From: Fibrobacter sp. UWB11
GTDB lineage: Bacteria > Fibrobacterota > Fibrobacteria > Fibrobacterales > Fibrobacteraceae
Reading direction: 5' to 3'
Length of the DNA: 64,000 nt
Assembly: GCF_900143015.1 (NCBI RefSeq)
Contig: NZ_FSRT01000002.1
Location: 1-64,000 of the forward strand
Below, piece after piece: positions 60,303-64,000 of the stretch (position 1 is the first letter of the stretch; each line of letters opens with the position of its first letter). The position numbers were made by a program, and so were the translations under genes. Below the pieces are notes generated by a model. It searched no databases. It was not told the origin of the DNA and saw nothing but the letters and a program-made list of their open reading frames with translations.

Positions 60303-61133
60303 TTACCACGTCACCACCTTATTCACAACTTCACGTTGTTCACTTGCAGTCTGGCGCAAATATATACGTGTAGTTTCGATATGTTCGTGCCCCATAAGGT
60401 CAGCAAGCAAAGCGATGTCGTTTCGTTTTTCCAGAAAGTTCTTAGCAAACCGGTGGCGAAACGAATGTGGATAAATGACGGCTTCATCTAGGCCATATTT
60501 CTTTGCGAACGTTTTCAGTTGCGAGGCAATCCCCCGCGGGGTAATCTGCTTGCCAAAACGATTCAAGAAAAGGTATCCACTCGACCGTCCATCCTTCGCA
60601 AGCCATTTCAAAGCTTCTTTTTGCAAAGTCTCAGGAATGTAGAGCCGACGCAACTTTCCACCTTTTCCGTAGATGTCAAAAAATCCGCACTCGACATGCT
60701 CCACTTTGAGTTTCACAAGTTCCCCTACACGGGCTCCCGTCGCCGATAGAAACCACACGACAAAATACCACTTAGTCTGACCATCTTGCAATAGACTAGT
60801 TTTCAAAAATTTGTAATCGGCATCGCTAATGACATTTTCCAGAAAACTTTTTTGCTGAACCTTGACATTCTTGATCCGTAACTTCGATTTGCCTGCAAAA
60901 TCCAAATACTTGTTGATGCCCTGAATTCGCAAATTAACAGTTTTGGGTTTGTAATTTTCTAAAAGAAAACTCTTATAATCAGCCAGCGACTTACGACCGA
61001 ACCGTCCGAAATGCGACTTGAAGAAGTCCGCTGTCCAGCAATACGAATCCATCGTATTGACAGCAAGGTTCTGCCCTTCCAGATACTGGTAAAACGAAGG
61101 TCTTTCTGCAAGGTAGAAAACGGAGCAGATCAT
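60303..61133 (-). CDS. Tyrosine recombinase (integrase), candidate hsdS invertase
   Basis: 276 aa: a SAM-like N-terminal core-binding domain (about 10-82) and a catalytic domain. The catalytic set is R135 (GARVGELVKL), K160 region (GKGGKLRRLY), H223-x-x-R226 (HSFRHRF), H249 (LMGHEHIETT) and nucleophile Y258. All are present. Its ATG overlaps the stop of the ORF6N gene (ATGA), so both come from one transcript. Given an inverted repeat in the neighbouring hsdS pair, it most likely drives DNA inversion there (inference), as invertases do at other type I loci. Confidence 0.9.
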   Translation of the reverse strand: MICSVFYLAERPSFYQYLEGQNLAVNTMDSYCWTADFFKSHFGRFGRKSLADYKSFLLENYKPKTVNLRIQGINKYLDFAGKSKLRIKNVKVQQKSFLENVISDADYKFLKTSLLQDGQTKWYFVVWFLSATGARVGELVKLKVEHVECGFFDIYGKGGKLRRLYIPETLQKEALKWLAKDGRSSGYLFLNRFGKQITPRGIASQLKTFAKKYGLDEAVIYPHSFRHRFAKNFLEKRNDIALLADLMGHEHIETTRIYLRQTASEQREVVNKVVTW

Positions 61134-62179
61134 AACAAGTTCTCAAACACGGCATGGTAAATCGAAACATCATCCAACTGAACAATAGACGTAATCTTGT
61201 TCCCGGCATCTTTGGAAGATGCTCCGCAGTGGAATATTTTTTCGTTCTTTGAACCAAAATCAAGCAGTATATAGCGGTCATGAAATATATTTCCGGCTGT
61301 TTTCGGATCTTCAAGCACAACATCTGGGCGCGCGGCCCTAAAATCAGCCAGCATGTTCTCGGTCAACCGGGTTCTTCCATATTGATCACTGAAAATCGTA
61401 ATGACAATACCCTTGGCGACATTCCGCAGTAAATCTAAAGTCTTGACATCCACATAATTGTCGATAATGACCACCGACTTCTTTGCCATACCATAAATTT
61501 GCGCGTACGCAACATCGGCTTCAAGTTTCTGTCCGTTCAAAATCAAGAAGTGCTTAAACATCGAAGGATCAATGAAGTTTTCCATAACCTTTTGCAAATC
61601 AGACTTCATTGCAAAAACATCCGTGCGGGTTTCGGCAAGTTCTCCACGAATTTCTGCAACTTCCCTTGTATTTTGAACCATATAAGAGGAAATTTGCGGA
61701 CTATTGCCCACGTTGAGCAACTGCATGTTCTCGGAAACAATGTAGTCCTTCATCTGCTTGAAAAGGCGAATCAGAGCCTTGCTTTGAGCTATAGCCTGTT
61801 CCCCCTTGAGGACCGTCATGAGCATATAAATACCCTGTTCGGTAAAGGCAAACGGCATTTTTCGCAAGCCGCCCCAACTTGAAGTCAAAAATTTTGACTT
61901 CAAGTCTGATGCCGGATGCAGGGATATAAGATTTGCAAGTTCATTGCGGTCAAGCTGAAACCGAAAATCATCGTCAAACTTTTCAATATTATTTTTGACC
62001 TGCTGGTTAAAAACCTTTTTGTCATACCCATAAATTTCCGCCAAGTCGGAATCCAACATCACCTTGAGACCACGAATCGTGTAGATTCTGGATTTCAGGA
62101 AATTTTCGTCTATCAGGGAGAAATCGTTTTTGCCGACTGCTTTTGATGCGGTTAATGCCGGTGCTTCTTGCTTGCTCAT
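61130..62179 (-). CDS. ORF6N domain DNA-binding protein
   Basis: 349 aa. The N-terminal ORF6N (KilA-N-related) domain covers about 20-110: IYTIRGLKVMLDSDLAEIYGYDKKVFNQQVKNN in order, then FRFQLDRNEL, SWGGLRKMPFAFTEQGIYML. The C-terminal half (about 215-345) is a separate alpha/beta domain (VVIIDNYVDVKTLDLLRNV, HDRYILLDF) resembling the phospholipase-D/nuclease-like domains found behind ORF6N. Such proteins are common passengers of type I restriction loci and phages. It is coupled to the integrase by ATGA. Confidence 0.85.
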   Translation of the reverse strand: MSKQEAPALTASKAVGKNDFSLIDENFLKSRIYTIRGLKVMLDSDLAEIYGYDKKVFNQQVKNNIEKFDDDFRFQLDRNELANLISLHPASDLKSKFLTSSWGGLRKMPFAFTEQGIYMLMTVLKGEQAIAQSKALIRLFKQMKDYIVSENMQLLNVGNSPQISSYMVQNTREVAEIRGELAETRTDVFAMKSDLQKVMENFIDPSMFKHFLILNGQKLEADVAYAQIYGMAKKSVVIIDNYVDVKTLDLLRNVAKGIVITIFSDQYGRTRLTENMLADFRAARPDVVLEDPKTAGNIFHDRYILLDFGSKNEKIFHCGASSKDAGNKITSIVQLDDVSIYHAVFENLL

Positions 62180-62273: not shown

Positions 62274-62882
62274 TTGAAAAAAAATGTGAGGCATAACCCC
62301 CATTATGAGAAGTTGACCGATATTCCCTTTGAAATCCCTGATTCCTGGGAGTGGGTAAAGTTGGGGAATATATGTACAATTTCGTCTGCAAAGCGAGTTC
62401 TAAAGGAAGATTGGAAAGAAACAGGAATACCCTTTTATCGTGCTAGAGAAATCGCTCAGTTAGCCAATGGTGAAATTGTAAAAGACGATTTGTTCATAAC
62501 CAAAGAATTGTATGAATCACTGAAAGATTTATATGGTGTTCCTCAAACGGGTGATATATTGATGTCAGCAGTGGGGACTATCGGAAAAACATATATTGTG
62601 AACAAAGACGATTGTTTTTATTACAAAGACGCAAGTGTTATTTGTTTAAAGAAAAAACATGCAGACATTTCATCAAAATATTTAAAAATGCTTTTTTCTA
62701 GTAATTACTTGCAAAAACAAATGTTCGCCAATTCCAACGGAACAACGGTGGATACGATAACAATATCTGTTGCGCAAGGATATACAATTCCTTTCCCGCC
62801 GTTGGCAGAGCAGAAAAGAATCGTGGATAAGATTGATGAAATCTTTAAGTCGTTAGACGAGATTTCTCTCCATTTGGTCTAG
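62274..62882 (+). CDS. Half type I restriction specificity subunit (alternative recognition domain, opposed)
   Basis: Only one target-recognition domain is present: NPHYEKLTDIPFEIPDSWEW at the start, a variable region (about 30-165), then IPFPPLAEQKRIVDKIDEIF. A TTG at 62274 with GGAG 7 nt upstream could start a 202-aa product, but it may be a silent cassette. It opens at a 20-bp sequence repeated in inverse orientation in the full hsdS opposite. After inversion this domain would be joined in frame to the hsdS N-terminal half. Its last 30 bp overlap the 3' end of hsdS. Confidence 0.85.
   Translation: MKKNVRHNPHYEKLTDIPFEIPDSWEWVKLGNICTISSAKRVLKEDWKETGIPFYRAREIAQLANGEIVKDDLFITKELYESLKDLYGVPQTGDILMSAVGTIGKTYIVNKDDCFYYKDASVICLKKKHADISSKYLKMLFSSNYLQKQMFANSNGTTVDTITISVAQGYTIPFPPLAEQKRIVDKIDEIFKSLDEISLHLV
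62293..62312 (+). repeat. Inverted repeat, left copy, of the hsdS invertible segment
   Basis: The 20-bp sequence ATAACCCCCATTATGAGAAG encodes (H)NPHYEK in the half-hsdS. An identical sequence in reverse orientation lies at 63429-63448. Confidence 0.9.
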
Positions 62883-63428
62883 TGTAGAAAACAACTCTTC
62901 AATCTTTGCGACAATCCGAGATTGCTCATTAAGTGGTGGTAATGGAATTTGACACCGTTGAATTATTTCAAGAGTGAGGTTTGGAATAGATGTAACTTTT
63001 GTTTGGTTTAATAACAACTCTTGTATAAAAGACGAATTAAGAGCGTATACCACATATTTTAAGAAATCATCTTTTTTTAAATAAAGACGGACAATGGAAA
63101 TGGCTTGGTTTGTATTAAGTGGCAAATCTGATTTATGAACGATAGCTGTTCGTCCTAACGAACCTGCAATTGTAATAAGTATATCCCCTTCTTTAATAAT
63201 AGATCGCGCGAGAAAACCTTGATGGGTTGCGGAATCTATAAATTTCATATTCGAGGAATTAATTTTTAGCATTCCAGGAATGTTTTCTGCGCGAATAAAA
63301 CCGACACCGTTGTCTATATAAGCGACATTTCCCCCGCGTGGAGTTGTTCCTTTTGTAATTAAAGAAGAAAGACTACCCAAAGCAACCCAATACCAATTTT
63401 CGGGTATTTCGAAAGGTTCGTCCTCTAT
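62313..63428. mobile_element. Predicted invertible segment (hsdS phase-variation switch)
   Basis: The 1116 bp between the two inverse 20-bp repeats contain two alternative recognition domains facing each other, ending in a 30-bp overlap. Inversion at the repeats keeps the frame on both sides and swaps which domain is fused to the promoter-bearing hsdS. A tyrosine recombinase gene lies 1.2 kb to the left. Confidence 0.75.
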
Positions 63429-64000
63429 CTTCTCATAATGGGGGTTATCACGTGTTATTCGTTCTAGCAAAACGCTGGCGGGTTCGTCGGATTTGTTTTG
63501 TGGAACGAGTTTTCCGTGGATGGCGAGGTCAAGGATTTTTTGGCGGGTTTGCTTGATATGGGTTTTGAGGAGTTCCTTGTTCTTTTCGATGGCATCGATT
63601 TCGGCGAAGGCTTCTTCAATTTTTGCGACAATACGTTGTTGTTCCGCTAAGGGCGGGAGTGGCACAGTCAAGTCTAAAACAACACTTCGAGCAATGCCAG
63701 GAACAAGTCCATTACCCTGAAATTTTAGGCGCTCATATTGCGAACCAAGAAAATTATACACATAAGCATTCAATGTTTTATCACTTATTCTAATCGCCAT
63801 AATTTGTCTGGCAATATGTGCTTTTTCAAAATCAGCGTAAACATAATTACCATAACCAGATCCTTTACACACAAGCAAGATATCACCTTTTTGCGCAATT
63901 ACCGAAGGATATTCAGTCCATCTATTCAATATCACATGATTATTAACAAAATTACTCGCTCCAGTAATATAAGGCAATCCTTTTTTTTCTGCATTGTATT
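62853..64000 (-). CDS. hsdS: Type I restriction-modification specificity subunit (partial, 5' end beyond window)
   Basis: The frame is open to the right edge (YNAEKKG precedes LPYITGASNF), so the start is missing. At least 382 aa are visible. The end of recognition domain 1 is followed by the conserved central helix (LPPLAEQQRIVAKIEEAF) and KILDLAIHGKLVPQN. Next come the joint NPHYEKIEDEPFEIPENWYW, recognition domain 2 (about 1.0 kb to 62.9 kb) and the distal helix LPPLNEQSRIVAKIEELF. HsdS sets the DNA sequence read by the HsdM/HsdR enzyme; those genes should lie to the right. Confidence 0.93.
   Translation of the reverse strand, partial: YNAEKKGLPYITGASNFVNNHVILNRWTEYPSVIAQKGDILLVCKGSGYGNYVYADFEKAHIARQIMAIRISDKTLNAYVYNFLGSQYERLKFQGNGLVPGIARSVVLDLTVPLPPLAEQQRIVAKIEEAFAEIDAIEKNKELLKTHIKQTRQKILDLAIHGKLVPQNKSDEPASVLLERITRDNPHYEKIEDEPFEIPENWYWVALGSLSSLITKGTTPRGGNVAYIDNGVGFIRAENIPGMLKINSSNMKFIDSATHQGFLARSIIKEGDILITIAGSLGRTAIVHKSDLPLNTNQAISIVRLYLKKDDFLKYVVYALNSSFIQELLLNQTKVTSIPNLTLEIIQRCQIPLPPLNEQSRIVAKIEELFSTLDQMERNLV
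63429..63448 (-). repeat. Inverted repeat, right copy, of the hsdS invertible segment
   Basis: Exact inverse complement of 62293-62312, lying at the same NPHYEK codons of the full hsdS, between its central helix and second recognition domain. Identity stops abruptly on both sides of the 20 bp. Confidence 0.9.

Follow-up and report, generated by a model that had tools for sequence, protein, structure and literature searches.

Can the type I restriction-modification (R-M) system at the end of this Fibrobacter sequence switch its specificity by inverting part of its own hsdS gene? The question is raised by a short repeat. The window, that is, the whole 64,000-nucleotide stretch that was analyzed (G000:C2:1-64000, G000 being the label of its genome), contains ATAACCCCCATTATGAGAAG on the plus strand at 62293..62312 and the reverse complement, on the minus strand, at 63429..63448. 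Perfect identity of the two arms extends over exactly 20 bp, and no other perfect inverted repeat in the 64-kb window is longer than 16 bp; the chance expectation for a 20-bp inverted repeat is ~0.002 per window and ~7e-7 within 1.2 kb. A general repeat search did not list the pair, which pattern searches and exact scripts recovered independently. In the reading frame of an HsdS-type protein, either copy translates as NPHYEK. The first-pass annotation had described a perfect 20-bp inverted repeat at these codons of a minus-strand hsdS and a plus-strand half hsdS, with a sharp end of identity outside it, and was correct to the base on both counts.

The invertible segment (62293..63448, assigned to neither strand) measures 1156 bp with both repeats and 1116 bp between the arms. 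Within it are the 3' half of a full hsdS gene and, facing this, a half hsdS that lacks a start. The full gene, encoding the specificity subunit, was identified as an open reading frame with two Methylase_S domains (Pfam PF01420) and similarity to solved HsdS structures. It occupies 62853..64000 on the minus strand and continues to ~64280 of the contig, the likely start being an ATG at contig position 64280, past the window end. The expressed-side repeat copy lies inside it, between the first and second target recognition domains (TRDs), and a second TRD of class A (defined below) is presently in the expressed position. The half gene (62295..62882, plus strand; PF01420, E 6.7e-21) begins with the silent-side repeat copy, carries a class B TRD and converges on the full hsdS with an overlap of ~30 nt. 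As it has no conserved start codon, and comparison of the upstream frames reveals in-frame stops just ahead of it in several species, it is most likely a silent cassette. Beyond the window, on the same strand as hsdS, are an Abi_2 gene (64309-65238 of the contig; Pfam), hsdM (65315-66772; Pfam N6_Mtase/HsdM_N) and hsdR (66765-69611; Pfam ResIII/EcoEI_R_C). Pfam thus places type I hsdR, hsdM and hsdS together at the locus; the NCBIfam models for the three type I subunits match below their cut-offs.

When the segment is inverted in silico, the hsdS frame acquires the other TRD and stays open, its stop-to-stop length changing from 498 codons to 496; the opposed half gene is likewise open. No stop or break appears in either frame, in agreement with the first-pass claim that inversion of the 1116-bp segment preserves both.

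Comparison with assemblies of relatives reveals that both orientations occur in nature, as seen between species. Two classes of second TRD can be told apart by their terminal sequences. G000 and G117 express class A (IEDEPFEIPENW...TLDQMERNLV), and G014, G003, G031, G048, and G045 express class B (LTDVPFEIPDSW or LTDVPFEIPDSWEW...SLDEISLHLV). The silent A-type half of G003 has a different start (MGLDERRETKDERD) and an A-type end. In all loci, the 40 bp leading up to the expressed site are almost the same, regardless of the class that follows. In global alignments of the segment among the seven complete loci, the orientation predicted from class scores better in 21/21 pairs. The clearest case is the close pair G048 and G117, which are collinear to the last repeat base, then carry a 635-bp block inverted at 95% identity, and then resume a collinear flank, so that the breakpoints lie at the repeat. 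Among partial loci, the silent side alone implies that A is expressed in G039, where the silent half is B, and that B is expressed in G019 and G110, where it is of A type. Contig ends near the site in G019 and G110 were considered as a sign of mixed orientations and were excluded from the evidence, strain variation being an equally possible cause. On the recombinase tree, many forks of which are weakly supported, the A and B states do not cluster, G000 (A) being placed next to G014 (B), for instance, which suggests repeated switching. Some A/B differences may result from inversion together with allele replacement, since TRD alleles are exchanged among species in other ways too. The proposal that inversion swaps the second TRD of a type I hsdS is supported by both orientations across related species, by breakpoints at the repeat and by a linked tyrosine recombinase, described below.

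The site, allowing ≤2 mismatches, is present in 13 of 80 genomes of the genus. Seven Fibrobacter species have the complete pair, exactly 20 bp each, and more have single copies. The TRDs between the pairs are mostly different among the seven complete loci, and both halves are open in all seven. In the main group the site copies are invariant over the 20 bp, even on the non-coding side, where flanks diverge; all listed Fibrobacter copies are identical. Some of the conservation of the right half-site comes from protein constraint, as part of it also encodes the conserved HYEK/PYEK motif. In public records, the exact site occurs under Fibrobacter titles, confirming the genus setting given in the first-pass annotation, with the exception of one Elusimicrobia MAG contig (L052). 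This contig has the same flanking ATPase-like gene as the Fibrobacter loci and was rejected as a non-Fibrobacter carrier, being probably a mis-binned Fibrobacter contig. The exact 20-bp site was absent from the viral contigs searched, and no inverted repeat of at least 13 bp was found in the scanned hsdS regions of the other type I loci of the window genome (L026-L029).

A likely invertase is encoded beside the site. The minus-strand gene at 60303..61133 specifies a 276-amino-acid, Xer-like tyrosine site-specific recombinase with a Phage_integrase domain (PF00589, E 2.1e-25), similarity to XerA, XerC, and XerD, and the catalytic R, K, H-R, H, and Y; the motifs GARVGEL, GKGGKLRR, HSFRHRF, and GHEHIETTRIYLR start at residues 133, 156, 223, and 248. 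The earlier annotation did not include this gene. Between it and the site is a variable accessory gene, which in the window encodes an ORF6N-domain protein (61130..62179, minus strand; PF10543) and in other species gives way to different genes, among them an ATPase-like one. A recombinase orthologue is found in 13/13 genomes with the site versus 3/67 others (Fisher p = 1.8e-12, computed without correction for shared ancestry; a fragment in G111 was left out of the count). Beside the site it is conserved at 92-99%, and it is absent from nearly all genomes lacking the site. As recombinase and site are linked in one locus, this co-occurrence could partly reflect joint inheritance. The ORF6N gene and recombinase are also kept in G004 (L040) and G044 (L042), with no hsd locus detected nearby, so the recombinase may have other roles.

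We estimate a probability of about 0.9 that the adjacent Xer-like recombinase flips the 1.1-kb segment at the 20-bp sites, giving two HsdS forms and a changed specificity. The enzyme would recombine the two inverted sites, with crossover probably at the 6-bp core CCCCCA between the ATAA and TTAT half-sites. The flip would join the constant 5' part of hsdS, comprising the first TRD and the central spacer, to either second TRD. A cell would then make one of two HsdS subunits that recognize one common and one different half-site, and the targets of HsdM methylation and HsdR cutting would change with the HsdS form. What we infer from the sequence is that the adjacent enzyme is the catalyst, that the core lies at these 6 bp, that the segment flips within a clone and that specificity changes as a result. 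The layout ATAA-CCCCCA-TTAT, with two half-sites around 6 bp, resembles Xer/dif sites. A dif-like pattern search of the window genome gave one weak match, and a control gave an equal count. Cores differ between related systems (below) and are common to partner sites, which fits strand exchange by a tyrosine recombinase.

The inversion could be real and yet be driven by RecA-type homologous recombination or by host XerC/XerD-type enzymes instead of the adjacent recombinase, a reading that we consider improbable. Twenty base pairs is short for RecA-dependent exchange. Host Xer enzymes are suggested by the four further tyrosine recombinases that the window genome encodes and by the dif-like layout seen on inspection of the site (ATAA, 6 bp, TTATG); against them stand the 92-99% conservation of the local recombinase beside the site and its near absence elsewhere, and the location of the sister-system recombinase inside its inverting segment. 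In Streptococcus pneumoniae, some hsdS inversions are reported to proceed without the local recombinase (PMC4948785; PMC6620402).

It is slightly less probable still that the locus no longer flips, or does so only on an evolutionary time scale, the half hsdS being a duplicate whose orientation is fixed in each lineage. Each assembly does have a single orientation, but such a history fits poorly with a site whose 20 bp do not vary among the main-group copies, the non-coding side included, with two open halves in 7/7 complete loci, and with states that alternate between relatives as close as G000 and G014. The least likely reading, which we regard as very doubtful, is that the opposed half gene encodes a short specificity subunit expressed in its own right, the 20-bp identity stemming only from a conserved protein motif or a gene duplication. 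In the window genome the half frame does extend upstream without a stop, and translation might begin at a TTG (62130) or at a GTG immediately ahead of the site; other species, however, have same-frame stops ahead of the site and no conserved start. Moreover, the identity is exactly 20 bp long in every complete locus, and the exchange of orientation between species needs recombination.

Divergent relatives of the switch were also found. G008 and G119 encode a 65%-identical recombinase inside a three-TRD array. G008 has the order Z, recombinase, Y, X, and G119 has the opposite one. At the recombinase block the two genomes match at 92% in inverted alignment; for the entire segment, turning one sequence around raises the score from -89 to 1022 and the identity from 0.56 to 0.73. 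This sister system shows a second inversion, that of a three-TRD array including the recombinase. Its sites, ATAACCGCCCTTATGAGAAG, ATAACCGCCCCTACAAGAAG, and ACTGCCGCCCTTATGAGAAG, have CCGCCC in common and the right half goes with the TRD, which would place the crossover in or left of CCGCCC. TRD interiors differ between G008 and G119, indicating that allele replacement happened too. G126 belongs to another genus of the phylum. Its recombinase, 62% identical, is flanked by two hsdS genes of opposite orientation; both TRDs are preceded by matching sites, ATAAGTCACATTATGAGAAG / CTAAGTCACATTATAAGAAG and, separately, a 22-bp repeat that includes GATACATCTCATTATCC. The one-cassette layout proposed by the first-pass annotation accordingly holds for the window and does not extend to these sister systems, with three TRDs in G008 and G119 and two opposed two-TRD hsdS genes in G126. 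The putative 6-bp cores are CCCCCA, CCGCCC, and, both in one genome of another genus, GTCACA and ATCTCA, while the outer half-sites, ATAA ... TTATGAGAAG, are common across Fibrobacterota systems. We tentatively suggest that the core recognized by this recombinase family may decide which TRD slots exchange, a simple addressing code for HsdS variants. As a separate observation, the two opposed two-TRD hsdS genes of G126 (L057 209-3701) have separate inverted repeats before TRD1 and TRD2, possibly a four-way switch.

Judged by sequence, the Fibrobacter locus belongs to the known inverting type I R-M systems, and the likeness to their logic pointed out earlier is closest for the PsrA/IR1 switch of S. 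pneumoniae. At the pneumococcal cod/ivr locus (SpnD39III, Spn556II), PsrA, a locus-encoded tyrosine recombinase, is required for inversion at the 15-bp IR1 inside hsdS, which swaps a 3' TRD of 553 bp (PMC4948785; PMC7096588). The two have in common a short inverted repeat in hsdS, exchange of the 3' TRD and a local tyrosine recombinase gene. However, S. pneumoniae has three hsdS genes, three repeat pairs and several alleles, whereas the Fibrobacter locus has one pair and two alleles; the Fibrobacter repeat, 20 bp long, has another sequence, which is conserved across species of the genus; and a slot for accessory genes separates site and recombinase, unlike in cod/ivr. The hsd loci of Mycoplasma pulmonis, where the tyrosine recombinase HvsR drives hsdS inversion and changes specificity (PMC4948785), are similar by description and differ in phylum and arrangement. 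Inverting systems make up 3.9% of type I loci in a REBASE survey (Atack et al. 2020), which recognizes them by hsdS copies that share a perfect inverted repeat of ≥20 bp, as is found here, and in which a recombinase gene is often present too; Fibrobacter does not occur in the main text of the survey (PMC7394358). Our literature search returned no paper linking Fibrobacter with hsdS inversion.

With this locus, the switching of restriction specificity by a recombinase would extend to Fibrobacter, a genus of major fibre degraders in the rumen. If the switch is active, cells of two methylation and restriction types would coexist in a clonal culture, and phage resistance, DNA uptake, genetic manipulation and possibly gene regulation would be affected. 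An invariant 20-bp site with a single recombinase would also offer a compact system for studying site choice.

Several further features of these loci were noted. The slot between site and recombinase (loci L031, L033, L034, L035, L037, and L041) holds, depending on the species, an ORF6N protein, a 531-codon ATPase-like protein or, in G038, a small toxin-antitoxin-like pair; the ATPase-like protein has an N-terminal start similar to that of the ORF6N protein (MSKQ..TASK..GK). This position between inverton and recombinase looks like a cargo slot. The Abi_2 protein encoded between hsdM and hsdS (G000:C2:64309-65238) is identical in G014, although the surrounding hsd genes differ. At a second type I locus of the window genome (L026 7971-9798; G000:C1:2073971-2075798), three overlapping open frames take the place of a single hsdS; the region has a 19-bp direct repeat and no inverted repeat of at least 13 bp. 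Finally, a 23-bp direct repeat in this hsdS (KILDLAI motif; contig C2, 63520 and 64237) lies on both sides of the first TRD, is also present in several species and could allow exchange of TRD1 through homologous recombination.
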